A stretch of DNA of 64,000 bases from Heliocidaris erythrogramma. Taxonomy: Eukaryota > Echinodermata > Echinoidea > Camarodonta > Echinometridae. The notes beneath the pieces were generated by a model. It saw nothing but the letters and a program-made list of their open reading frames with translations. It made no database searches and was not told where the DNA came from. Where the stretch lies: NCBI GenBank assembly GCA_025617745.1, contig CM046873.1, positions 25,984,410-26,048,409 of the forward strand, given 5' to 3'. A program made the position numbers and the translations under genes. Of the stretch, positions 17,461 through 40,700 are shown one piece after another (within the stretch, counting starts at the first letter, position 1; each line of letters starts with the position of its first letter).

Positions 17461-17642
17461 ACAGTCGTGTGAGTGTGTGTGTGTAATTGGGTTTTTACAG
17501 ACGTGTATCAATCAGATATGATTATTTACGTCTGAGACCGACCTTCAACGTCACCATCCGAAAGACGTGACTCAGTCTCGAACCTGGGTCGGCTGAATCA
17601 GTTTATAACTTCCACTGGTAGCTGGATTACAGGCGCACGCCA
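17461..17642 (-). repeat. Penelope 3'-region segment shared with 26-32 kb
   Basis: A (GT)n tract, then ACAGACGTGTATCAATCAG and a block ending in CGCCACAACGCCCAG. The same block occurs at 26461-26518 plus 27218-27354 and at 31230-31295 plus 32067-32203, in each case split by an inserted hairpin element that is absent here. This copy therefore shows the unsplit state. Confidence 0.9.
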
Positions 17643-18320
17643 CAACGCCCAGGCAAGCGCCTTTTATAGCGTAAGCTGCGTTCCGAGGGCGCCGGAACTG
17701 CCGTGCTGCTATTGGTCCGTGAAACCGACCAACCAGAAGCCGCGGACGGTGCGTTCGGTGCGGACGTCGGGGAAAACCCCGTCGGTGCTACTGGCGGGCT
17801 ACTGGCTACTGGCGGGCGAAATGCGAACGTCGGACGTAGGGGCGCATGTCGGCGGATGGTGGGGAGCCATTCCTCCGGGATGTCAATGCCATTATCTCTA
17901 TTGATATTATTGGGGTGTAAACGGATTTGGATAGCTTCTTTAACACGCCGTGTGTAACAGTGCTTATCCCGCGCTATGCAACTTACCTCATCCCAATTGG
18001 AGGGTGCTGTGCGCTCCAAGCATGCATGCTCAGCGACTGGCGAACTATCTATGCGACGGTGCTTGACATCTCTGCGGTGTTCTAGCATTCTTTCGTTTAC
18101 GGGTCTACCTGTTTCGCCGATGTAGACCTTGTCGCAAGTCCCGCATGGGATCTTGTAGACAACGTCGCCAAGTCTGCCGGGTAGCGTGGGGTCCTTCGGG
18201 TGGACTAGCTGGTTACGAATATTGGTGTCGGACTTGAAAACGGCGCGTATGCTATGCTTCTCTAGGTGTCGGCGGAGCTGGCGAGAAATAAAATCGACAA
18301 ACGGAAGAACAACGGTAGAC
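17627..18320 (-). pseudogene. Penelope GIY-YIG endonuclease domain
   Basis: Continuing from the RT in a shifted frame, an open stretch begins near FISRQLRRHLEKHS and runs to a stop at 17627. It contains the VVYKIPC segment and the GIY-YIG core VYIGETGR with the following EHRRD, then an HPNNINRDNG phrase near the typical C-terminal part. This nuclease nicks target DNA for Penelope integration. The domain looks intact, but it is separated from the RT by a frame change and a deletion. The Pro/Ala/Ser-rich tail (about 70 residues before the stop) is of low complexity. Confidence 0.85.
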
Positions 18321-18363
18321 TTGTAATTCCCGGTGCACTAGTGTGTCAAGGAAAGCGATGCGG

Positions 18364-19470
18364 CTATTGCCTTCCGTCTCCATATAGTGAAACGAATAGA
18401 CGGTTGCTGCGCTTCACGTGACTTAAAAGACCACCGGTGGTGGATCTATTAGTTACACTGAAGGTATCATAGACATAGCGTTTCCAAATTATCGGGCTGA
18501 GTTCGGGCGGGCAAGCTTTGAGCGCATCTTCCTCAAAGGATTCCATGTACAAGTTAGCAATAACTGCGGAAACAGGACTCCCCATGGCCGCTCCTTCTTG
18601 TTGTTCATAAAAGTCACCGTTGTACATGAAGTACGTGGATTCTAGCACGAACTTAAGAAGATCTGTGACCTGGGCAGGAGAGAGCTTGGTGCGATCGGGC
18701 AGAGTAGCGTCGGCTTCCAGTCGCTGGAGAGCGACGACGCAAGCGGCTTCTACGGGTACATTGGTAAACAGGGATACCACGTCGAAAGAGACCATGATCT
18801 CGTGATCACGTATGGTCTCGCTGCGCAAGAAATCAACAAACGCGGCAGAGTTACGGACTGCATGCTGACTGTTACCAATCAAGGGGGAGAGAATTTCGGC
18901 TAAAAACTTAGAAGTGTTGTAAGCAAATGAACTCATACAAGATACTATCAGGCGCAGCGGGATCTCAGGTTTGTGGATTTTCGGCAATCCATAGATTCTA
19001 GGCGGTTGCTTCTGTGAGGGTCTAAGCATACGGTATGTCGAATCATCGATATCACTATTCTTGTGAAAACCGCAGAGAATGGTCGCAAGCTTGCGGGAGA
19101 AACACTCGGTGGGGTCTTTCCGTAGAGCGCGGTAAGGACCTGAGCTGATCAAATCTGACATCTTATCACGGTAAGTAGAGGTGTCTAATACCACGCTAGC
19201 GCGGCCTTTGTCAGCTGGCAAAATCATAATCGAGCTGTCTTCCTTGAGCGACTTCAAGGCTTTGCGCATGCCAGGAGTGACGTTGGACTTAGGCGGTTCG
19301 GCTGAGGAGAGGATCGCATTGACCTCCCTGCGGACTGAGCCGACGGTTTCGGCATCACGGCAACGGACGGAAGATTCGACTTTGGCAATAATCTCAGCAG
19401 CAGGGATGCGCTTAGGAGCTATAGCAAAATTAAGCCCCTTTCCCTCGTTTGCTCCTTCGTGTGACAACAT
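18364..19470 (-). pseudogene. Penelope-like reverse transcriptase, inactive
   Basis: A 368-residue frame, starting at MLSHEGANEGKGLNF within the terminal repeat. Visible RT motifs are GLPKIHKPEIPLRLIVSC (about 160-177), motif A VSFDVVSLFTNVPVE (about 228-242), motif B GAAMGSPVSAVIANLY and motif C. Motif C reads YVYDTF, where active family members have two adjacent aspartates (YVDDTF or YADDTF). The first Asp codon has become Tyr, which should abolish polymerisation. The frame runs off after GDGRQ. In the next frame the FLDTLV motif that normally precedes the thumb appears, and the sequence then jumps to the linker before the endonuclease, so roughly 90-110 residues of thumb are lost. The start is probably a 5' truncation point rather than the original start. 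Confidence 0.9.
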
Positions 19471-19482
19471 ATCAACTTATAC

Positions 19483-22224: not shown

Positions 22225-22890
22225 ATTCGTAACGGAGAATACCACTCCTTGCTCAAACTAAACCGCTTGAATGGAAGGCGTTAGAAACGCATATAAAGAC
22301 GAGGTTATGGCTATGTAAATACAACTGTATATGAAACAAAGATTAGTAACGCTTGCTGATCTCGCTCCCTCAACGAAAAGTTATTTAATCGATTCATTAA
22401 AGCAATCGATTGTCTAATAGATTGAATGGCGGTGCGAAATCAAATCTTCATAATTATATCTCAAGTAAAAATTACAGACACAATTTAGCATTCTATTCAA
22501 TTTTCCAACATTGTATAAAAATAAAATTAAATCTTTATTTTTAGTTCAACTCTTATCAATATCTTATCAATTGTGATAAATAAAAAAATAGGATTTTTTT
22601 ATTTCTTTCAACCTATCAAAAATTACTTCAAAATATCAAAGTATTACTTCATTTTCACACAACGACTTATCCAAGGACGCCGGACGGGCGTTTAAGTTAC
22701 CGATGGCAATTTTTATGGCTATTCAGTCAACCCAGGGTAGATAACAATTCCTCCTGTCTATATCGCAGGCATCCTAGACGTTTTAGTTTGTCAACCCCAG
22801 GCTAGATTTTAAAAAAAATGACACCTGTTTATATCACACGTGTCTCAGATGTTTTAATTTGTTGTCAACCCAGACTCGTATTTGTGGATG
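22225..22890. repeat. Truncated outer piece of the tandem duplication
   Basis: 22230-22430 matches the block near 23165, 28490 and 33715 (AGAATACCACT, ACTAAACC, AATCGATTGTCTAA). 22720-22880 matches the block near 28190-28370 and 33410-33590 (GTCAACCCAGGGTAGAT, CAACCCAGACTCGTATTTGT). This is a diverged unit lacking about 4.6 kb of core. Confidence 0.75.
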
Positions 22891-22902
22891 CGTGTGATAT
22901 TT

Positions 22903-23035
22903 ACAGGCATTTTATTTATTTTTTTTATTCATTTAATTGTTTTTTGGGGGGTGAGTTGGTTTTTTTTTTTTGGTTTTTTTTTTGTTTGTTTTTTGTTGCT
23001 AAATGTACACACACGCATACACACATAAACATAAC
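22903..23035. repeat. T- and G-rich simple sequence
   Basis: Long T-runs broken by GGGG and then CA repeats. It interrupts the block that is continuous at 28375 and 33600. Confidence 0.85.
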
Positions 23036-25213
23036 TGAATAATACCCCGGAGTATACCAATAAATTCAGAAAATTCATGAGTGATGTTGTAGAAAGGCGG
23101 TAACAACCCGGGGTAACAACTGTTCACACCTCTCCCTCCCCCTCCCCATTTCTGGATCTGCAAACAGAGAATACCGCTCAAACTAAACCACTTGAATGCA
23201 AGGTGTTAGAAACGCACATAAAGACGAGGTTAGCTATGTAAATATGCGAAACTGAGGAAAAACGTGCATGCATTTTTGTTGCTAACCGCGGCCGTGAACA
23301 AATATTTTGTAATCGATTTATTGTAATAATCGATTGTCTAAAAGGGAAATGTTGGTATGAAAATAAAATCATACCTAATAATCTTACCAAAATATATATT
23401 TGAAAATTTTACCTCACCTGAAGAAAATATTAAATCATAGAGCAAAGTAAAAATATTTTCCTGTATTGAACTATCAATTTCTTTTCTAGAAAAAAAATGC
23501 CGGTAATTATTTTAACCAAAAACAAATATAAGTATTTTTTTATGTAAACACTTTTTTCCATTAGAATTTTTGTCTCAACAACGCGGCCGAAGGCCGCTGG
23601 CATTAAGGATTCTTTTTGACACACATCTTGCCGAAGCGAGATGTCTTAATAAAATATAAGATATATGTTCATACGTGATACATAGCATGCTTTCTAAGTC
23701 TCAAAGCTATATCCAGTATGTTCAGACAGGCCATGATCCACTTGTTCTAATTCTATCACCCACTCGTGACTATTCATCGCTTACTCGCTGCCAAAACAAT
23801 AATTACTGCGCCACACACGGTGACCCGAGTATAATTCGTATCCATGGTCAAAACGCGCGGAAGTTTGTGCACAGGAGTCATTTCATGCCAAGTTTTGGTT
23901 TTGAATAATATTTTATTTGTCTTCATAAATCAACATAATAACACAATAACAATTCATTTGTAATATCGATAATACAATCAAATAGCAAATACATTGTGTT
24001 AAAATAATAAATTTAAATAAACCTTGTACATGTCAAAATTGACTGAACTCCAATCTTATACCAAAATAAAACACGTGCACACTATTCTCTGGTAAGCACA
24101 TGTAAATCAATATCTAAAGACCACATCATATATATATATAAAAAGAAAAAGAAGGAAAAAGACAAAAAAACCCTCCCTTACCACACAGTATACACAGTAG
24201 CCTATACCCTACATCACATGAATACATACATTACATTACAGCACCAGATGAAACAGACACAATGATAATAGAAAAAAGTAGGAAAGAGGGTACATCACAC
24301 GAATACATACATTACATTATTTATAGCACCACATGAAACAGAGAGAATCATAATAGTTGCGAGATAGCAGCGAATGAAGCGGCGATTGCGCTCACACTAC
24401 AAAATTGATAGTCACAAGCACGGTGGATGGTCTACCGCCAAGTATCGATGCTTTGTCGCTGGATCCTGAGATTTACTCCTGCCAAACTCGCTGCCAGAAT
24501 GGTTTCGAAACCTAGCTCCAACTATTAACTCGCTTCTATCTCGTGACTATCTGCGTTCAGACAGCGTTTGGTCTTAAAACTATCTGGTCATGACCAAAAT
24601 AGTCTCGAAACCTAGATAGCATCGATGCTCTCGCTCTACGTGTGAACGTATACCTTAAAAGGTAATCTGCCAATAATTATGACCATTTAACTTGCAATAA
24701 TATTTTTAGCGATAAATACCAACACTAATATTTTGCAGGCATTTGTTTTTGTTTAACTATCGGGGTGAACTAGGACATCTTGTCCCAGTTCACCCAGTTA
24801 CTTTTTGTAAGGATGGAAGCTACAAACATTTGCTGTAAAGTCTTCAAAATTTCCAGGGGTGGGGGGGGGGGGGGTGTTCTGAAATTGAATGATCTATTTG
24901 ATCTATCTTCTTTTTTTTAAACCACGGTGCCGAATTTTTTGAAATTGGAATTTTACGATCTACATTCTGTCGCTAACTGAATCAACGTCTTTCGGAGAAC
25001 AGTGCACTCCACAGTCTTTCACTCGTCAAAACAAAATTTCCTAAAATAAAATACCAAATTTCCTGAAATTTTCAAAGCCAATGTGTAGTACTTGTTGTTT
25101 TTGTTATATGAAAATTGCCATGGAGACTTTAGTAGAGTCCTGGTCATGCAGTTCTCAAAGAATTGGGAAAGGTTGACAAAGTCTACGTGAGAATTGTTTT
25201 ATACTGTGTTGTT

Positions 25214-25510
25214 GTAGAGGTGTCGTGGTCTAGTGGATACGTCACCGGACTGTGGCTCACATGGTTCGCGGTTCGAATCCCGCCACGGCGCTAATGTCCT
25301 TTGGCAAGACATTCATCTACATTTGCCACTCTCAACCCAGGTGAAGTAAATGGGTACCCGGTAGGAAGAAATTCCTTGAAATGCTTTAGCGCCATAATAG
25401 GCAGCTCGGCTAAAGCCGGGTAATAATGTGATACTTTGTATTAAGCGCAGTAGAGTATATCCATATAGTGGCTGCGCTATATAAATGGGCATATTATTAT
25501 TATTATTGTT
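25214..25510 (+). mobile_element. tRNA-derived SINE in copy A, TSD TTGTT
   Basis: A 297-bp insertion with a precise empty site in copy B (near 30288). The flanks repeat TTGTT at 25209-25213 and 25506-25510. The head at about 25219-25291 has A-box-like GTGGTCTAGTGGATACGTC and B-box GGTTCGAATCC. The body has TTTGGCAAGACATTCATC and GGGTACCCGGTAGGA, and ends in (TTA)n. A relative is at 44806-45080. Confidence 0.92.
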
Positions 25511-26460
25511 TTGGAATAATAATGATGATAATAATATGTCTTGTTTACCCAGGATAGCCTCATCAGTATTATATACTGTTCTCCCTGAGGGTCCTGCATG
25601 CAATCATCAAAATAGATAAGAAATTGACCCAATCTCACTAAAAAGAACATGTACTACATACATAAATGAGTATATGGGACTACACACACAAATGGCATGA
25701 ATGTTCGGCCCGAACATTCAAGCTATTTCTAGTCATAGCCTATTTCGAGTATAAGAGCATTTGAAGAACAATCCTTTTCAGAGGATGTTTCTAATATGAT
25801 GTTCTTCCAAACAGACAAAAAAGGAATGAGAAAGCTCACAAAATATTTTTCACATTTCCCAGAACTCCTCAGGATACCCTTTAATATGAAACTTATATAG
25901 TTGATCAATTTTGCGAGTGAGCGAGCCAAAATTACACTCAATTTAGAGTGAATCAATTTTTTTTTATTTAAACACAAAATAAAGATGTAAAAGGGTCAAT
26001 ATTGGTTCACTGTTATTCAGGAAAGCTCTACTAGTAGTAGAACCATATTATACTTAAATGCTGTATGCGGGGTGTTCACTATAGCCAATTGGTATACATA
26101 CTTATATAGATTATTTGACAATGAATGATGAAAAATGGACAAAAAAGTGGACAAAAAAAGATGTGAAAATCAAACCTAGAAGCAAAATCGCAGTATATCT
26201 GTGAATGTATATGTGAACATTGATAGTTAAGGCCTTTCGTATGATTCAAACTAATTTATAAAAGGTTAATTGCTTTTTTAGTTAGAGGTGGTGTCCCATT
26301 TTTCGGGCGTCCCGGTTCACCCCGCTCTCCCCTACATTATTTCTTGTTTTTCGTTACCTTTTGTTTTGGTGTTTGTGGGTTGTTGTTTTTTCTAAATAAT
26401 TTGAAATATTTAAAATAATAAGTCAAATCAGCATCCCATTTCACTAGCACAATTTTATAC

Positions 26461-27354
26461 ATAGTAATGTGTGTGTGTGTGTGTGTGTAATTGTTTTTTT
26501 ACAGACGTGTATCAATCAGTATACAAATAATGAATGTTTATGAGTGCAATGGAAAGAATATTTTCATGAGTTGAAAGATGGAATGTTCCATTCAATGAGG
26601 CGAAGCCGAATTGAATGGAACAGATTCCATCTTTCAACGAATTCCATCTTTCAACGAATGAAAAATTATTATTATTATTATCCTTGTTATTTGTACAATA
26701 AAATATAATTTATTTATAAATTTAACGTAACTGGCCGGGTCCCTGTCGGGGTAGCGTCTGCCAATGAGCAGTCAGTCAGAGCCCAGTTCACGCTCAACCA
26801 AATTCTCAATTATCTCTTCACTCGGTGGATTCTCTCACAAAAGTATATTGTGCTTAACATGGAATCGGCCACACTCACTCAAACAATCACCTAAACTAAT
26901 AGATGTACTCGTATAATGTTGTGGCTAAAGTTGACAAGAAACTTTTAACCAAATACACTTCTTTCCTCTACAGCAGCTCAACATCGTCCTGTCGCACGCG
27001 AGCGTAAAATAACACATAGATCTATGGGCAAAGTCCGGTATGCGCTGTATCGCAGCCGCGCATTACACTGAAAAGGTCGAGGCGTTGAATGGAAAAAAAT
27101 CGTATGGAACAAATGCACGCTAGCTAGCGCTAAACCATGGAATGGAACAAATATTTAATAACATGTGACCTATTATTCTCCAATCAAATTACAAGGATCT
27201 ACTCAGGTGTTGTATAAATATGATTATTTACGTCTGGGACCGACCTTTAACGTCACCATCCGAAATACGTGACTCAGTCTCGAACATGGGTCCGCTGAAT
27301 CAGTTTATAACTTCCACTGGTAGCTGGATTACAGGCGCACGCCACAACGCCCAG
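26461..27354. mobile_element. Penelope 3' fragment split by a nested element, copy A
   Basis: The Penelope 3' segment known unsplit at 17461-17642 is here broken after ATCAATCAG (26518), and resumes at ATGATTATTTACG (27219). The roughly 700-bp insert begins TATACAA and ends TTGTATA. It contains a strong hairpin at 26570-26638 (GTTGAAAGATGGAAT mirrored by ATTCCATCTTTCAAC) and an (ATT)n tract. Confidence 0.8.
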
Positions 27355-27538
27355 TTGTAATGGAATGTTATACAGTAATGGAATTTATACATACTTGATC
27401 ACTACTACATAAGAAGTACCGGACTTATACCAAAGACGTTTAATAGTATCAAGACAGATCACTGTCACCTACTTCCGTAGTACATTTTGGAGATGTAAAT
27501 TGCTGTGTTAAAAACAGACTCGGAAAAATATGTTCGCC

Positions 27539-27572
<34 letters not shown>

Positions 27573-30500
27573 GCTTAAATAGCGCATCATTCAGTCATCT
27601 CTATGCACTTTACAAATTATGAAAACTAACTATATTCGTAATGTGTATAAATAAATACATGATATTAAATTACTTTACAATACATTCAGTTAAATTACAT
27701 TAGATCACAATACAGTGTGCCTACATTTATTGCATTACCTAGCACTACATTATAAGCGAGTGAAATACTTGAAATTATACGACATAAAAGTGAAATAGCG
27801 GATAACATAAACATACACATGATTAGACGCATTGATATAATTTATAACATTAAGAGTAAAGGTGTGTCTTTAGAGAGTTCTTGAAACTATTGACGGAGGA
27901 TGCTTCACGAAGTTGGGTAGGAAGAGAATTCTACATGTGTAGGTGATAAGGTGCTGAAAGCACGTTTCCCGTAAAATTTGCTGTTCACCCTCGGTGTATA
28001 ACACGTGAAAATAGTCATCTTCCATAGGGTTAACACGTGAAAACATGGATTTTAAAAATGATTATAGTTCCTCTGGTATTACCTTGAATTTAGTGTAAAT
28101 GTGGCTTACATGTAATTTTAGACTGCTTATATTACAATCTTACACACTTAAGTTTTTTGGTCAAACCCAGTGTTGTCTTTGTGTCCATTAAGTCAACCCT
28201 GATAACAATTCCCAATGTCCATATCACAGGCAACCTAGACGTTTAAGTTTATCAACCCAGAGTAGTTTTGTGGCTATTTAGTCAACCCAGGGTAGATTGA
28301 AAAATGCCATCTGTTTATATCACACTTGTCTCAGAAGTTTTAATTTTTTGACAACCCAGACTCGTATTTGTGGATATTAAATACTCCGGAGTATACCAAT
28401 AAATTTAGAAGATTCATGAGTGATGTTGTAGAAAGGCGGTACCAACTGTTAACACCTCCCCATCCCCCTCCCCATTTCTGGATTTACAAATAGAGAATAC
28501 CACTCAAACTAAACCACTTGAATGCAAGGTGTTATAAACGCACATAAAGACGAGGTTAGCTATGTAAATACGCGAAACTCAGAGGAAAAACCTGCATGCA
28601 TTTATGTTGTTAATCGCGGCCGTGAACCGTATTTTTAATCGATTTATTGTAATAATCGATTGTCCAAAATGGAAATTTTGGTATGAAAATAAAATCATGC
28701 CTAATAATCTTACCAAAATATATTTTTGAAAATTTTACCTCACCTGAAATTAATAAAGAAAATATTAAATCATAGAGCAAATTAAAAATATTTTCCTATA
28801 TTGAACTATCAATTTCTTTCCTAGAAAAAAAAATGCCGGTAATTATTTTAACCAAAAAAAATATAAGTATTTTTTTATCTAAACACTTGTTTCCATTAAA
28901 ATTTTTGTCTTCAACAAAGCGGCCGGAGGCCGCTGGCATTATGTTTACTTTTTGACACACATCTTGCCGAAGCGAGATGTCTTATAAGATATAATGTTCA
29001 TACGTGGTACATAGCATGCTTTCTAAGTCTCGAAGCTATATCCAGTATGTTCAGACAGGCCATGATCCACTTGTTCTAATTCTATCACCCACTCGTGACT
29101 ATTCATCGCTTACTCGCTGCCAAAACAATAATTACTGCGCCACACACGGTGAAAACACGTGCACACTATTCTCTGGTAAGCACATGTCAATCAATATCTA
29201 AAGACCACATCATATATATATAAAAACAAAAAGAAGGAAAAAGAAAAAAAAAAACCCTCCCTTACCACACAGTATACACAGTAGCCTACTTACACCTACA
29301 TCACACGAATACATACATTACATTACAGCACCAGATGAAACAGACACAATGATAATAGAAAAAAGTAGGAAAGAGGGTACATCACACGAATACATACATT
29401 ACATTATTTATAGCACCACATGAAACAGAGAGAATCATAATAGTTGCGAGATAGCAGCGAATGAAGCGGCGATTGCGCTCACACTACAAAATCGATAGTC
29501 ACAAGCACGGTGGATGGTCTACCGCCAAGTATCGATGCTTTGTCGCTGGATCCTGAGATTTACTCCTGCCAAACTCGCTGCCAGAATGGTTTCGAAACCT
29601 AGCTCCAACTCGCTTCTATCTCGTGACTATCTGCGTTCAGACAGCGTTTGGTCTTAAAACTATCTGGTCATGACCAAAATAGTCTCGAAACCTAGATAGC
29701 ATCGATGCTCTCGCTCTACGTGTGAACGTATACCTTTAAAAGGTAATCTGCCAATAATTATGACCATTTAACTTGCAATAATATTTTTAGCGATAAATAC
29801 CAACACTAATATTTTGCAGGCATTTGTTTTTGTTTAACTATCGGGGTGAACTAGGACATCTTGTCCCAGTTCACCCAGTTACTTTTTGTAAGGATGGAAG
29901 CTACAAACATTTGCTGTAAAGTCTTCAAAATTTCCAGGGGTGGGGGGGGGTGTTCTGAAATTGAATGATCTATTTGATCTATCTTCTTTTTTTTAAACCA
30001 CGGTGCCGAATTTTTTGAAATTGGAATTTTACGATCTACATTCTGTCGCTAACTGAATCAACGTCTTTCGGAGAACAGTGCACTCCACAGTCTTTCACTC
30101 GTCAAAACAAAATTTCCTAAAATAAAATACCAAATTTCCTGAAATTTTCAAAGCCAAAGTGTAGTACTTGTTGTTTTTGTTATATGAAAATTGCCATGGA
30201 GACTTTAGTAGAGTCCTGGTCATGCAGTTCTCAAAGGAATTGGGAAAGGTTGACCAAGTCTACGTGAGAATTGTTTTATACTGTGTTGTTTTGGAATAAT
30301 AATGATGATAATAATATGTCTTGTTTACCCAGGATAGCCTCATCAGTATTATATACTGTTCTCCCTGAGGGTCCTGCAATCATCAAAATAGATAAGAAAT
30401 TGACCCAATCTCACTAAAAAGAACATGTACTACATACATAAATGAGTATATGGGACTACACACACAAATGGCATGAATGTTCGGCCCGAACATTCAAGCT

Positions 30501-32417
30501 ATTTCTAGTCATAGCTATTTCGAGTATAAGAGCATTTGAAGAACAATCCTTTTCAGAGGATGTTTCTAATATGATGTTCTTCCAAACAGACATAAAAGGA
30601 ATGAGAAAGCTCACAAAATATTTTTCACATTTCCCAGAACTCCTCAGGATACCCTTTAATATGAAACTTATATAGTTGATCAATTTTGCGAGTGAGCGAG
30701 CCAAAATTACACTCAATTTAGAGAGAATCATTTTTTTTTTTATTTAAACACAAAATAAAGATGTAAAAAGTCAATATTGGTTCACTGTTATTCAGGAAAG
30801 CTCTACTTTAGTAGAACCATATTATACTTAAATGCTGTATGCGGGGTGTTCACTATAGCCAATTGGTATACATACTTATATAGATTATTTGACAATGAAT
30901 GATGAAAAATGGACAAAAAAGTGGACAAAAAAAGATGTGAAAATCAAACCTAGAAGCAAAATCGCAGTATATCTGTGAATGTATATGTGAACATTGATAG
31001 TTAAGGCCTTTCGTATGATTCAAACTAATTTATAAAAGGTTAATTGCTTTTTTAGTTAGAGGTGGTGTCCCATTTTTCGGGCGTCCCGGTTCACCCCGCT
31101 CTCCCCTACATTATTTCTTGTTTTTCGTTACCTTTTGTTTTGGTGTTTGTGGTTTGTTGTTTTTTCTAAATAATTTGAAATATTTAAAATAATAAGTCAA
31201 ATCAGCATCCCATTTCACTAGCACAATTTTATACATAGTGTGTGTGTGTGTGTGTGTGTGTGTAATTGTTTTTTTACAGACGTGTATCAATCAGTATACA
31301 AATAATGAATGTTTATGAGTGCAATGGAAAGAATATTTTCATGAGTTGAAAGATGGAATGTTCCATTCAATGAGGCGAAGCCGAATTGAATGGAACAGAT
31401 TCCATCTTTCAACGAATGAAAATATTCTTTCCTTTGCACGAATGAAAAAAAAATCATTATTTGTTTTATACAACATCTGAGTAGATCCTATATAAGTGCG
31501 TTGTATTATTATTATTATTATTATTATTATCCTTGTTATTTGTACAATAAAATATAATTTATTTATAAATGTAACGTAACTGGCCGGTCCCTGTCGGGGT
31601 AGCGTCTGCCAATGAGCAGTCAGTCAGAGCCCAGTTCACGCTCAACCAAATTCTCAATTATCTCTTCACTCGGTGGATTCTCTCACAAAAGTATATTGTG
31701 CTTAACATGGAATCGGCCACACTCACTCAAACAATCACCTAAACTAATAGATGTACTCGTATAATGTTGTGGCTAAAGTTGACAAGAAACTTTTAACCAA
31801 ATACACTTCTTTCCTCTACAGCAGCTCAACATCGTCCTGTCGCACGCGAGCGTAAAATAACACATAGATCTATGGGCAAAGTCCGGTATGCGCTGTATCG
31901 CAGCCGCGCATTACACTGAAAAGGTCGAGGCGTTGAATGGAAAAAATCGTATGGAACAAAAATGCACGCTAGCTAGCGCTAAACCATGGAATGGAACAAA
32001 TATTTAATAACATGTGACCTATTATTCTCCAATCAAATTACAAGGATCTACTCAGGTGTTGTATAAATATGATTATTTACGTCTGGGACCGACCTTTAAC
32101 GTCACCATCCGAAAGACGTGACTCAGTCTCGAACATGGGTCCGCTGAATCAGTTTATAACTTCCACTGGTAGCTGGATTACAGGCGCACGCCACAACGCC
32201 CAGTTGTAATGGAATGTTATACAGTAATGGAATTTGTATACTTGATCACTACTACATAAGAAGTACCGGACGCGTGTAATTTTTTGGTAACCAAGCCTAG
32301 GCAGATTTCGCATTTTTTCATACTAATACGGTTTATTCCGTCAAGACTAATCGGCATGAATATTCATGAAAACGAATTTTAGCTATATAATAAAACGAGC
32401 AAGGGCATCGAGCAGCT

Positions 32418-32491
32418 GCTCTGTGTGGCGCAATCGGATAATCCAGTCTTCTCTTGGTGAAGGAACCAAGAGTTCGAATCTCGGCAGAAGA
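32418..32491 (+). tRNA. tRNA-Arg(TCT)-like pseudogene inside the MITE
   Basis: A-box-like TGGCGCAATCGGATAA and B-box AGTTCGAATCTC are recognisable, and GTCTTCTC supplies a possible TCT anticodon, as in animal tRNA-Arg. The acceptor stem pairs poorly (GCTCTGT against GCAGAAG), so I regard it as a degenerate passenger or internal promoter rather than a working tRNA. Confidence 0.55.
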
Positions 32492-32518
32492 TTATATTAC
32501 GAAATTTTCTTTTGCTTA

Positions 32519-32548
32519 TTAGGGTTAGGGTTAGGGTTAGGGTTAGGG
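32519..32548 (+). repeat. Interstitial (TTAGGG)5 telomeric repeat
   Basis: Five perfect copies of the animal telomere repeat lie 28 bases downstream of the tRNA-like sequence and inside the transposed element. They are therefore not a chromosome end. Confidence 0.97.
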
Positions 32549-33602
32549 TTTAGAAAATACAAGTCCGATACTTGTAGTCTGTTTCAAAGTCTTCAAAAAG
32601 GGGTTTCTGCCTAGGCTTGGTTACAAAAAAAAAGACGCGTACCGGACTTATACCAAAGACGTTTAATAGTATCAAGACAGATCACTGTCACCTACTTCCG
32701 TAGTACATTTTGGAGATGTGAATTGCTGTGTTAAAAACAGACTCGGAAAAATATGTTCGCCATAATAATAATAAAATAATAATAATAATAATAAGCTTAA
32801 ATAGCGCATCATTCAGTCATCTCTATGCACTTTACAAATTATGAAAACTAACTATATTCGTAATGTGTATAAATAAATACATGATATTAAATTACTTTAC
32901 ACTACATTCAGTTAAATTACATTAGATCACAATACAGTGTGCCTACATTTATTGCATTACCTAGCACTACATTATAAGCGAGTGAAATACTTGAAATTAT
33001 ACGACATAAAAGTGAAATATCGGATAACATAAACATACACATGATTAGACGCATTGATATAATTTATAACATTAAGAGTAAAGGTGTGTCTTTAGAGAGT
33101 TCTTGAAACTATTGACGGAGGATGCTTCACGAAGTTGGGTAGGAAGAGAATTCTACATGTGTTTAGGTGATAAGGTGCTGAAAGCACGTTCCCCGTAAAA
33201 TTTGCTGTTCACCCTCGGTGTATAACACGTGAAAATAGTCATCTCCCATAGGGTTAACACGTGAAAACATGGATTTTAAAAATGATTATAGTTCCTCTGG
33301 TATTACCTTGAATTTAGTGTAAATGTGGCTTACATGTAATTTTAGACTGCTTATATTATAATCTTACACACTTAAGTTTTTTGGTCAACCCAGTGTTGTC
33401 TTTGTGTCCATTAAGTCAACCCAGATAACAATTCCTACTGTCTATATCACAGGCATCCAAGACGTTTAAGTTTATCAACCCAGAGTAGTTTTGTGGCTAT
33501 TTAGTCAACCCAGGGTAGATTGAAAATGCCATCTGTTTATATCACACTTGTCTCAGAAGTTTTAATTTTTTGACAACCCAGACTCGTATTTGTGGATATT
33601 AA

Positions 33603-35345
33603 ATACTCCGGAGTATACCAATAAATTCACAAAATTCATGAGTGATGTTGTAGAAAGGCAGTACCAACTGTTCACACCTCCCCCTCCCCCTCCCCATTTC
33701 TGGATCTGCAAACAGAGAATACCACTCAAACTAAACCACTTGAATGCAAGGTGTTAGAAACACACATAAAGACGAGGTTAGCTATGTAAATACGCGAAAC
33801 TCCGAGGAAAAACGTGCATGCATTTATGTTGCCAATCGCGGCCGTGAACAAATATTTTTAATCGATTTATTGTAATAATCGATTGTCCAAAATGGAAATG
33901 TTGGTATGAAAATAAAATCATCCTAATAAACTTACCAAAATATATCTTTGAAAATCTTACCTGACCTGAAATGAATGAAAAAATAATTTAATTATAGAGC
34001 AAAGTAAAAATATTTTCCTATATTGAACTATCAATTTTTTTTCCAGAAAAAATATGCCGGTAATTATTTTAACCAAAAACAAAATATAAGGAATTTTTTA
34101 TAAATACTTGTTTCCGATTTAAACGTTGTCTCAACGTCGATCTCAAGAAGTCAGACTAGAGAGAGAAAAATTTCATTATTTTTGACACACATCTTGCCGA
34201 AGCGAGATGTCTGAGATATCAAAAGAAATGTCAATATGATTCTACCAAACAGATTAAATACGAAGAGTGCTCAGTCCCGAATTAAAGCACGCGTATATAA
34301 TTATTGTGGTACATGTCGATCGACCCAGAGGGAAAGGTCATAGTCTCTATCAAGATGTCTGTATTTTTTATCTTCTTTATTTTTTCTTCTTTTTCTGGAC
34401 ATCGTTTTTGGTAAAGCCGTAACTAAGGGCATAATCTTGATATTGTCCCTTCAAATACAAACTTATACCCAAAAACAGAATCAACTCTAACTGCACCAGG
34501 GAGGAGAGGGAGAGAGTTGGGGGCTAGGGCTAGATGTTTGTATATTAAATCCTGGGTAAACAAGACATATTATTATCATCATTATTATTCCAAAACAACA
34601 CAGTATTAAACAATTCTCAAGTAGAACTTGGTCAACCTTTCCCAATTCCTTTGAGAATTATATGACCAGGACTCCACTAAAGTCTCCATGGCAATTTTCA
34701 TATAATAAAAACAACAAGTACTAGCTTAAAGAGGCTTTTGAAAATTTCAGGAAATTTTGTTTTGACGTGTGAAAGACTGTGGAGTGCACGGTTCTCCGAA
34801 AGACGTTAATTCAGTTAGTGACAGAATGTAGATCGTAAAATTCCGATTTCAAAAGATTCGGTGGTAAAAAAAAAGATAGATCAGATAGAGCATTAAATTT
34901 CAGAACCCCCCCCCCCCCCCCCGGAAATTTTGAAGACTTTACAGTAAAGGTTTGTCGCATCCACTTTTACAAAAAGTAACTGGGGTGAACTGCATGGGAC
35001 AAGATGTCTAGATAAATAAAAAACAAAAACAAATGCCTGCAAAATATTAGTGTTGGCCGGTATTTATCGCTAAAAATATAATTGCAAAGGGTCACATAAG
35101 TATGCGGGATGTTCACTATAGCCAAGTGGTATAGTTAGAGGTGGTGTCCCAGTTCTCCCGCGTCCCAGTTCACCCCGCTCTCCCCAACATTATTTTCGTT
35201 GCCTTTTATTTTGGTGTTTGTGGGGTTGTTGTTTTTTGCAAAATGATTTGAAATATTTAGAAGAATAAATACTGAATAAGTCAAATCAGCATCCCATTTT
35301 ACTAGCACAATCTTATACATAGTAATGGAATGTTTACTTATACTT
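33603..35345. repeat. Diverged, rearranged third copy (C)
   Basis: 33603-34200 follows copies A and B in direct order with more differences. About 34553-35083 matches the reverse complement of 24710-25560 (minus the SINE), for example the GGTCAACCTTTCCCAATTCC phrase. About 35098-35325 returns to direct order, matching 26069-26460. It stops exactly where A and B acquire the (GT)n-Penelope fragment, so C probably predates that insertion. Confidence 0.85.
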
Positions 35346-37717: not shown

Positions 37718-40700
37718 GTTAGTTGATGATTGTTGTTATTGCGGTTTTGTCACTGACACTGGAGTGTGGGATGCTGAGACTGAGTGCACACTGACATATG
37801 CTGTGACTGTCTGAATCAATTTGCGTTGCCCCACATATTGGAATTGATGTCATGATTTACTAGTATAAGTATAACTAATATCACACTTCACAGAACATTG
37901 GGGTGTTTCATAAAGCTGTTCGTAAGTTACGCACGACTTTACGCACGACTGGTCATGCTGGTGATCATTTCTTGTGCTAAACATGCTAAATCAATGATTG
38001 AGAATCTGATTAGTATCACTCCCGGTACATTTCTGTAAAATAGTTGGTATTTTCTGTCGCATGTACTAAAGGTATGGGGGGGAAAATAAGATAAATATTT
38101 TAAATACTTGCTTTCAAATTCAGCCCTTAAAAATCTCACTCCTACCTCAAATGGCCGTTAGGAAGAACTTTTGATATTTACAGCAAAATCCAAAGTCAAA
38201 ATCTTGTCCAAAACCGGAGAAATCCCCGCCGATTTGTTTCGCGATCGCGTGTTGTTTACAAACTGCCGATGTCTTAGACTAAAATCGGCCAATATAATTT
38301 TTGTCCACGAAGAAACTCGGGATCGCAAGGGCACATCGATCTTTACGATCGCGCACACAGAAAATCGGAACTTTTCCGTGTACGCCATAGGGACCGAATT
38401 TTTGAGGACAAAACTCTTTTGGGGAGATGTCAGCGCCCGCGGCTAGCCAGGATTAGCTTCGTGAATGTAGAAAAAAAAAAAAAAAATGGCTATACGCCTT
38501 CTACACACGAAGCTAGGCGTTATTACCCAGCAATCACATTCCGCACGGGGTAGTACGACATGAAAAATGCCCTGAAATCACACTTTTCTGATAGTTTCCA
38601 AGACCCACAGACCCTTCCCCACAGCGTTTCCTCCTAGGGAAACGTTTGTAATGACAATTTTTTTTCGATTGACTCTAATTTTGGAAATATATCCATAAAA
38701 AGATGATAAAAATTTCAGAAAACTCACCAGCGTTTGCGTATCCATGCCTCCGAGGTCATGCAGATCAAAATGGCGGCACGATCGCCGTAATCGAAATCAT
38801 GAAAACTATTAGGCGCCGTTTGTAAATTTATTATTTAGCTCAATTATTTACATATAATTCACTATTTAGCTCTTTTCTACGATTATTATACGATAAAATG
38901 ACATAAAGGATACAATGTTTTATAAATAATGAATTTTGCAATTTCCATAATATTTGATATATAATGAATTTGTGAAATCATTATTTATAAATAATGGAAA
39001 CTTCAAAATTCATTATTTATATATGATGAATATTGTAAAATCATTATTTAAAAAAAATGGAAATTGCAAAATTCATTATTTATAAAACATTGTATCCTTT
39101 ATGTCATTTTATCGTATAATAATCGTAGAAAAGAGCTAAATAGTGAATTATATGTAAATAATTGAGCTAAATAATAAATTTACAAACGGCGCCTAATAGT
39201 TTTCATGATTTCGATTACGGCGATCGTGCCGCCATTTTGATCTGCATGACCTCGGAGGCATGGATACGCAAACGCTGGTGAGTTTTCTGAAATTTTTATC
39301 ATCTTTTTATGGATATATTTCCAAAATTAGAGTCAATCGAAAAAAAATTGTCATTACAAACGTTTCCCTAGGAGGAAACGCTGTGGGGAAGGGTCTGTGG
39401 GTCTTGGAAACTATCAGAAAAGTGTGATTTCAGGGCATTTTTCATGTCGTACTACCCCGTGCGGAATGTGATTGCTGGGTAATAACGCCTAGCTTCGTGT
39501 GTAGAAGGCGTATAGCCATTTTTTTTTTCTACATTCACGAAGCTAATCCTGGCTACCCGCGGCGACCAGGAAATGTACACAATGACTCCGATAGCTCGTT
39601 TCGCGAGAATCAACAGTAAATTGCGGATTTCATTTTTGTAAATATCTTTTCCAACATTGGTGAGTTGAATTTATTGTATTTCTTGGATATTTTGGGGTCG
39701 GTTTTTGAAAATTAAATGCCGATTTTGAGTGAATATTGGTGACTTTTGTGCAGTGGTGTTTTAAAAAGATGAGGTGTATGACTGCCTACATTATACACAC
39801 GAAGTATAGGAATGTAGCTATGAGTGCTTAGTATTACTATTACAAAAAAGTATTACTATTAGTATTAGGATCAGTTTCACTGTCATTATTCATGTTATTA
39901 TTATTATCACCTAAGAACATGTTCCAGTCGTTCGAAAAGTCATTCGTAACTTTACGAACCATGCGAACAGCTTTATGAAACATGCGAACAGCTTTATGAA
40001 ACACTGGGCCAAAGTCGTTATTATGCCCACTCATAGGTACACGCCATTGCCGACTGTGTAGTAACGCAGCCAACACACATCCCATACCTAAACTGCATCA
40101 CTGTGCATTTTTGGCTATATTTAATTGAATATAATATATTACAGTTTACTTATATCCAAAGAATTATATTGAATAATAGATGATTAAAACTTACCAGGTT
40201 GTTTTGTGACCTTTGAAGAGGGTTTCCTGAAATTTTGGGTCCTTTTTGTCGATAACTGCTATCGAGACTGTCCCGTCAGCATCCAGTTTGTATTTTTCAC
40301 GATTATGATGAAGGGAGCCCTCAGCGCTCGTAGTAGTACCGGCGCGATGGGTTCGTCGATCTCCTACGAAGACCTGAAAGGGCCAAACTGACGACGTAAA
40401 AAAGAAAAAATATTACGTACGTACGTAATAATTACTACGTACGTACGTAATATTTTTTATTTTTTTACGTCGTCAGTTTGGCCCTTTCAGGTCTTCGTAG
40501 AATAGCTTGTGTGCGTAACATTCTGCGTACGTATCAACGGTGCGTAACCATGTAGAGCGGCCTCACTAGTGCGCAACATATTGAGAGCAATCGTGATCCG
40601 TATGCAGGTGTGGGTAACAAGTTCCAAAAAGAGAGCTGTAAATGTAAGTTTTTATAACTTTCTACATTTTGTATCTTAACGAACTGATAACTTAAACTCT

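Follow-up and report, generated by a model that had tools for sequence, protein, structure and literature searches.

How did a telomere-type repeat come to lie, together with a tRNA-like sequence, between the inverted ends of a short DNA element? This question is raised by a locus of the sea urchin Heliocidaris erythrogramma, situated in a stretch of 64,000 nucleotides that was analysed as a whole and is called the window here (contig C21, positions 25984410-26048409). Positions 32272-32638 of the window are occupied, on the forward strand, by a 367-bp non-autonomous transposon, delimited by the alignment to its empty site and by genome matches and belonging to the short form, TTAGGG subfamily, of the family described below. 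It is flanked by perfect 9-bp target-site duplications of GTACCGGAC, with C-C-G at their centre (left copy 32263-32271, right copy 32639-32647), and its ends pair over about 34 bases, as a left terminal inverted repeat at 32272-32305 (forward strand) and a right one at 32605-32638 (reverse strand). The region 22739-34135 consists of tandem units of about 5.2 kb, two nearly complete and a third partial. The two nearly complete units are 98.1% identical over 4,670 aligned bases, and their alignment contains an insertion of 376 bases, which is the element plus one 9-bp repeat; the neighbouring unit has a single copy of GTACCGGAC at 27416-27424. A preliminary description of this DNA had reported the insertion with its inverted ends and 9-bp duplication, an empty site near 27420 in the sister copy and five TTAGGG units, all of which we recover at these coordinates, the array reading (TTAGGG)5.3 at 32519-32550 on the forward strand.

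The window's two tandem copies are compatible with insertion and with precise excision alike. A Mutator-like element in yeast is reported to excise precisely in about 90% of events when it is flanked by a duplication (PMC5225508), so the empty site could in principle be a product of excision; that the family transposes is indicated by other copies, which have duplications of their own. Several further insertions are present in one tandem unit and absent from another. A SINE-like insertion with a tRNA-like head (25209-25505) is found in one copy only and looks recently active, given a 99.6% identical copy at another locus (L014), and a 245-bp insertion (23823-24067), also in one copy only, had no match in 236 kb sampled. 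Elsewhere in the window there is a large foldback with 479-bp arms that are 99% complementary (38437-39562), an 82% relative of which lies in L014, and a region of open frames (17627-19476) in which 18364-19473 has reverse transcriptase similarity (RVT_1, below the curated cut-off); the downstream frame, without a family match, looks like a Penelope-type GIY-YIG part.

The ends of the element follow the pattern GCGT...GTAACCAAGCCTAGGCAGA. Both ends contain the exact 19-base core GTAACCAAGCCTAGGCAGA, for which 0.04 matches at up to three mismatches are expected by chance, and the whole assembly (1,064,227,859 bp in 26 contigs) contains it 1,428 times (725 forward, 703 reverse), compared with 0 for the reversed control. 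The exact core at both ends and the genomic count together rule out chance inverted ends. The core had no exact match in the viral contigs or prokaryote genome contigs searched, collections that may omit the window's own genome. A mechanical scan for inverted ends and duplications gave 12 candidates, none with the ends of this element, gapped ends being missed by the design of the scan. As folded DNA, bases 32273-32629 greatly exceed 100 shuffles in stability (z -5.6), chiefly owing to the inverted ends; folded as RNA without its ends, the element is no better than shuffles (z -0.16). In its interior, four short inverted repeats with arms of at least 6 bases lie side by side without overlap; 0 of 500 shuffles and 7 of 214 equal window pieces have as many. 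With arms of at least 5 there are five, a count attained in 21 of 300 shuffles. A 14-base perfect palindrome, CATGAATATTCATG, at 32355-32368 occurs too in the ends of two longer copies (L104 and L105).

A 357-base query from the element gave 45 matches from the best 40 scored of 1,981 first-look candidates. At least about 41 near-complete copies lie on many contigs, which rules out a one-off capture. Six top-scoring copies, the window's own included, are 100% identical over the query, and such identity suggests recent activity of the family; the near-identity of the scored copies is biased, since these are the best matches. Most copies have the length of the query or depart from it by multiples of six. 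The 100 core sites that were listed, covering contig C1 and contig C2 up to 18.9 Mb, pair into 17 short copies, 20 pairs with cores 1.2-1.5 kb apart, one of 2.1 kb and one of 8.4 kb, with 22 sites unpaired; all 17 short and 8 of the 20 long pairs were read. TTAGGG is present in 9 of these short copies and absent from the other 8, two of which (L119 and L120) agree in duplication sequence and in variants, as one duplicated insertion would. Over all 51 short loci read, window included, 43 have the array, most of them having been picked as best matches to the window element. No copy was met in a 200-kb sample of contig C1 (20 stretches), which agrees with a genomic total between a few hundred and a thousand. 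Four loci (L077, L083, L088, L097) have neighbouring copies that are adjacent, in tandem or partial, and at L077 a single 9-bp spacer separates successive copies.

These elements are short and non-coding, with inverted ends, duplications of fixed length and many copies, and thus form a genuine family of miniature inverted-repeat elements (MITEs). The preliminary description had suggested a mobile vehicle for telomere repeats and Pol III promoters, and a genome search for further copies with duplications and TTAGGG cargo. Many were found, dispersed and with 9-bp duplications of their own, and the vehicle is borne out for telomere repeats; for Pol III promoters it is a conjecture. The combined cargo of tRNA-like part and TTAGGG recurs in other copies but is not constant, as the 8 short copies without TTAGGG demonstrate.

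Of 59 delimited copies, 41 lie between perfect 9-bp duplications (35 of 49 short, 6 of 10 long), and in the remaining 18 the duplications are imperfect, with one or two mismatches in 11 and more than two in 7. All 38 distinct perfect duplications, the set from which the rule is derived, share C as their fourth and G as their sixth base. Their G+C content is 80%, against 32-47% along the window, and the 50-bp flanks of the best-match copies are fairly G+C-rich (50%). The two-sided symmetry of this C-N-G rule is the expectation for a symmetric transposase target, and so strict a centre provides a sharp, testable property of the element's transposase.

The same ends also bound a form of about 1.35 kb, without the tRNA-like part or TTAGGG. 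Its inverted ends are largely matched over about 200 bases in five of six aligned copies and over about 90 in the sixth (L104), compared with only about 34 bases in the short form; the left end of the window element resembles this sister form over about 50 bases. Six long copies (L104-L107, L115, L116) have neither a TTAGGG array nor an exact A-box motif, and seven loci of 1.4-2.3 kb have no stop-to-stop frame above 87 aa. At one locus (L103, C1:69190590-69199110) the element ends lie 8.4 kb apart with gag/protease-like frames between them. We rejected this locus as an autonomous copy, as its frames read as gag/protease of an LTR retrotransposon, which is apparently nested in a long form of the element. 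The element loci read yielded neither a transposase nor an autonomous copy.

From the length of the duplications and the long ends, the transposase is most likely Mutator-like. Superfamilies other than Mutator likewise make 8-9-bp duplications, so the Mutator-type label is one that we infer. The Merlin superfamily, with 8-9-bp duplications and an IS1016-type transposase, is also compatible with the 9 bp found here. That a transposase of such another family, for example Merlin, moves these elements is a tentative alternative, which we consider unlikely: no apparent site preference is reported for Muta1 (PMC5225508), in contrast to the strict C-N-G centre here, but inverted ends as long as those of the 1.35-kb form (about 200 bp) fit a Mutator-like element. 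For the latter, duplications of 8-11 bp and typically long ends are described (PMC6446971); this family has 9 bp in 41 of 59 copies and long ends in its 1.35-kb form.

The telomeric array is the sole place in the window where TTAGGGTTAGGG occurs at up to one mismatch (4 overlapping matches, 0.24 expected). In the other delimited TTAGGG copies the longest perfect run is 2-12 units. Twenty contig ends were read: one, at the end of C9, consists of TTAGGG repeats (164 units in its last kilobase), and a telomere array is absent from the other 19, the start of C1 being read as N. From this contig end we take TTAGGG to be the host telomere repeat. Two loci with shared flanks (L081 and L100), which represent one insertion in a duplicated locus, have 5 and 2 units, so that array length changes in place. 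One copy (L109, C1:60134625-60135325) has 12 units and an extra segment of 238 bp.

The junctions of the array are nearly uniform. At the array site, marked here by a stroke, the eight TTAGGG-less copies read CTTATT/TAAAAATAAGG, typically within CTTTTGCTTATT/TAAAAATAAGGTGACTGAGTAAGAAAATAC and with small differences among the eight; judged by these junctions, they show the pre-insertion site. On the left, 42 of 44 arrays (43 loci) begin after exact TGCTTATT, the exceptions being one changed base (L090) and a changed unit near the array start (L084). On the right, 41 arrays read TTTAGAAAAT, one has a changed base (L091), one a changed unit (L101) and one, L113, is different. L113 reads TTTTGCTTATT-AGGG(TTAGGG)3-TT-TGCTTATTTAAAAATAAGG, with an 8-10-bp duplication around the array; with longer left context it reads TTGCTTATT-AGGG(TTAGGG)3-TT-TGCTTATTTAAAAATAAGG, the old sequence being broken only by the telomeric block and the duplication.

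In a tree built with the array masked, rooted arbitrarily and without support values, 40 TTAGGG copies fall in one group against 8 others, which form no group of their own. As the TTAGGG copies form a single group, TTAGGG was probably acquired once, followed by transposition. L113 has the ancestral base at sites 8, 148, 178 and 198 and the derived base at site 208, a position at which the ancestral base persists in ten other TTAGGG copies. This single copy may hold the original junction or may be a later recombinant, a possibility raised by its base at site 208; site 8, inside a gapped T-run, argues against a recombinant origin.

A telomerase-type insertion is expected to leave an empty ancestral site and an in-register junction, sometimes with a target duplication. 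The observations that bear on it here are the empty form in 8 copies, the TT in register and the 8-10-bp duplication in one copy. Two other sources for the array were weighed. An element near a chromosome end might have captured a piece of real telomere, by gap repair or template switch, and then spread. Mutator-like elements are known to capture host gene fragments (PMC5225508) and one contig end has the same repeat as the array, but the roughly 15 kb adjoining the one telomere array read hold no element copy and the copies read hold only TTAGGG-type units at the site; we regard this origin as doubtful. Alternatively, a local TTAG-like sequence of the MITE could have expanded by slippage, with no part for telomerase or capture; this would account for arrays that differ by whole units, both from copy to copy and within the one insertion that is present twice. 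Against it, neither GGG nor a TTAGGG seed stands at the site in the TTAGGG-less copies (TTATTTAAAAATAAGG), and L113 has an added block with a flanking duplication, which makes slippage a poor candidate.

The second part of the cargo, at 32415-32495 on the forward strand, aligns to tRNA-Arg(TCT), and includes an A-box-like motif at 32426 and a B-box-like motif with two mismatches at 32471, the sole such pair in the window. Against a tRNA-Arg(TCT) reference the alignment scores 43, compared with a mean of 21.8 and a maximum of 36 in 500 shuffles; five other copies (L110-L114) score 35-41 against shuffle maxima of 32-38, with L114 (37) below its own maximum of 38. ARAGORN and Rfam, run without a positive control, called no tRNA in the window element or the other forms tested; weak Rfam matches (RAGATH-15, lincRNA and others) were discarded, being far below gathering scores, and the segment does not fold as RNA more stably than shuffles (z -0.89). 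Of the degenerate tRNA-Arg(TCT)-like cargo first described, the similarity beyond shuffles thus stands (43 against 36), but ARAGORN and Rfam do not recognise it and the label denotes likeness in sequence alone. An origin of the segment from a tRNA is plausible on this similarity.

Both boxes are identical to the window's in 24 of 37 copies. All 17 short copies from the listed core sites hold the segment, damaged in some; L109 lacks the B-box part and L118 has one A-box change. Among 37 otherwise near-identical copies the most variable inner sites lie in the tRNA-like part (element positions 141-224), which has 66 minor letters, compared with 11, 4 and 3 in other inner parts, 12 in the array and 22 and 14 in the ends. 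This excess looks partly like ancestral variants that are still segregating. Two TTTT runs (32505-32513, forward strand), 3' of the B-box-like motif and before the array, are possible Pol III terminators, and from their position a Pol III transcript would probably end before the telomere repeat. Although the tRNA-Arg-like similarity exceeds shuffles and the same window has a SINE-like insertion with a tRNA-like head (25209-25505), the idea of a tRNA-derived SINE with a TTAGGG tail in an accidental frame of inverted repeats is very improbable and is rejected, since tRNA-derived SINEs have no inverted ends and make duplications of variable length, while these copies are bounded by inverted ends and 9-bp duplications and the same ends bound forms free of both cargo parts.

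We propose that the MITE is moved in trans by a transposase, probably Mutator-like, which would make 9-bp duplications at C-N-G-centred targets. An older member would already have had the tRNA-like segment. Telomeric repeats would have entered such a member once, most likely by telomerase-type repair of a break, the array starting in register on an exposed TT, and about 30 bp may next have been deleted at the right junction. The transposase would then have copied the TTAGGG version, presumably by cut-and-paste, to many chromosomes, leaving a short interstitial array at each site, and array length would have drifted afterwards, mostly in 6-bp steps. We consider this account as a whole likely. 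A bolder reading, to which we give little credence, is that the MITE is a standing dispersal system for the telomere repeat, written once by telomerase and planted at C-N-G sites beside a putative Pol III-type promoter. If it were true, the planted telomeric seeds could be binding sites for telomere proteins, points of fragility or fusion, or starting points of new telomeres.

How does this family compare with known systems? With Mutator-like MITEs, such as those of pineapple with 9/10-bp duplications that are termed Mutator-derived (PMC8449440), it shares 9-bp duplications, long inverted ends in a sister form and non-coding short forms. It differs from them in its telomeric cargo, tRNA-like segment and strict C-N-G centre, and its class is assigned from ends and duplications alone. 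The interstitial telomeric insertions of primates, rodents and horse are similar in having a short TTAGGG block, an in-register junction and an occasional target duplication. Target duplications are reported at 3 of 66 horse loci and in-register bases at 31 of 40 (PMC7215372), and duplications at 6 of 130 rodent and 4 of 25 primate insertions (PMC2246262). Those papers treat insertions locus by locus, whereas in this genome a transposon has most likely multiplied a single event.

Tandem repeats tied to MITEs are described for (GTCY)n in insects and Xstir in Xenopus (PMC6947457), and this family resembles them in that respect; it differs in that the repeat here is also found at a host contig end and a repeat-less form exists in the same genome. 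MER6, a MITE with a SINE V domain, is likewise a DNA transposon carrying a retroelement piece, but it is Mariner-derived and its abstract names no telomere repeat (PMC6887750). Helenus similarly has a tRNA-like sequence within a mobile element that is not a SINE, but there it lies in LTRs, with 4-5-bp duplications (PMC10886601), in contrast to the inverted ends and 9 bp of this family. Among the matches listed, no title or abstract opening named a TTAGGG-bearing transposon with terminal inverted repeats and a tRNA-like part. A review counts transposition of mobile elements among the possible ways in which interstitial telomere repeats arise (PMC6410037). With filled, empty and candidate junction copies in one genome, this route becomes directly testable; interstitial telomere repeats need not mark old chromosome fusions, and the family is direct evidence for the dispersal of telomere sequence within a genome by a transposon.
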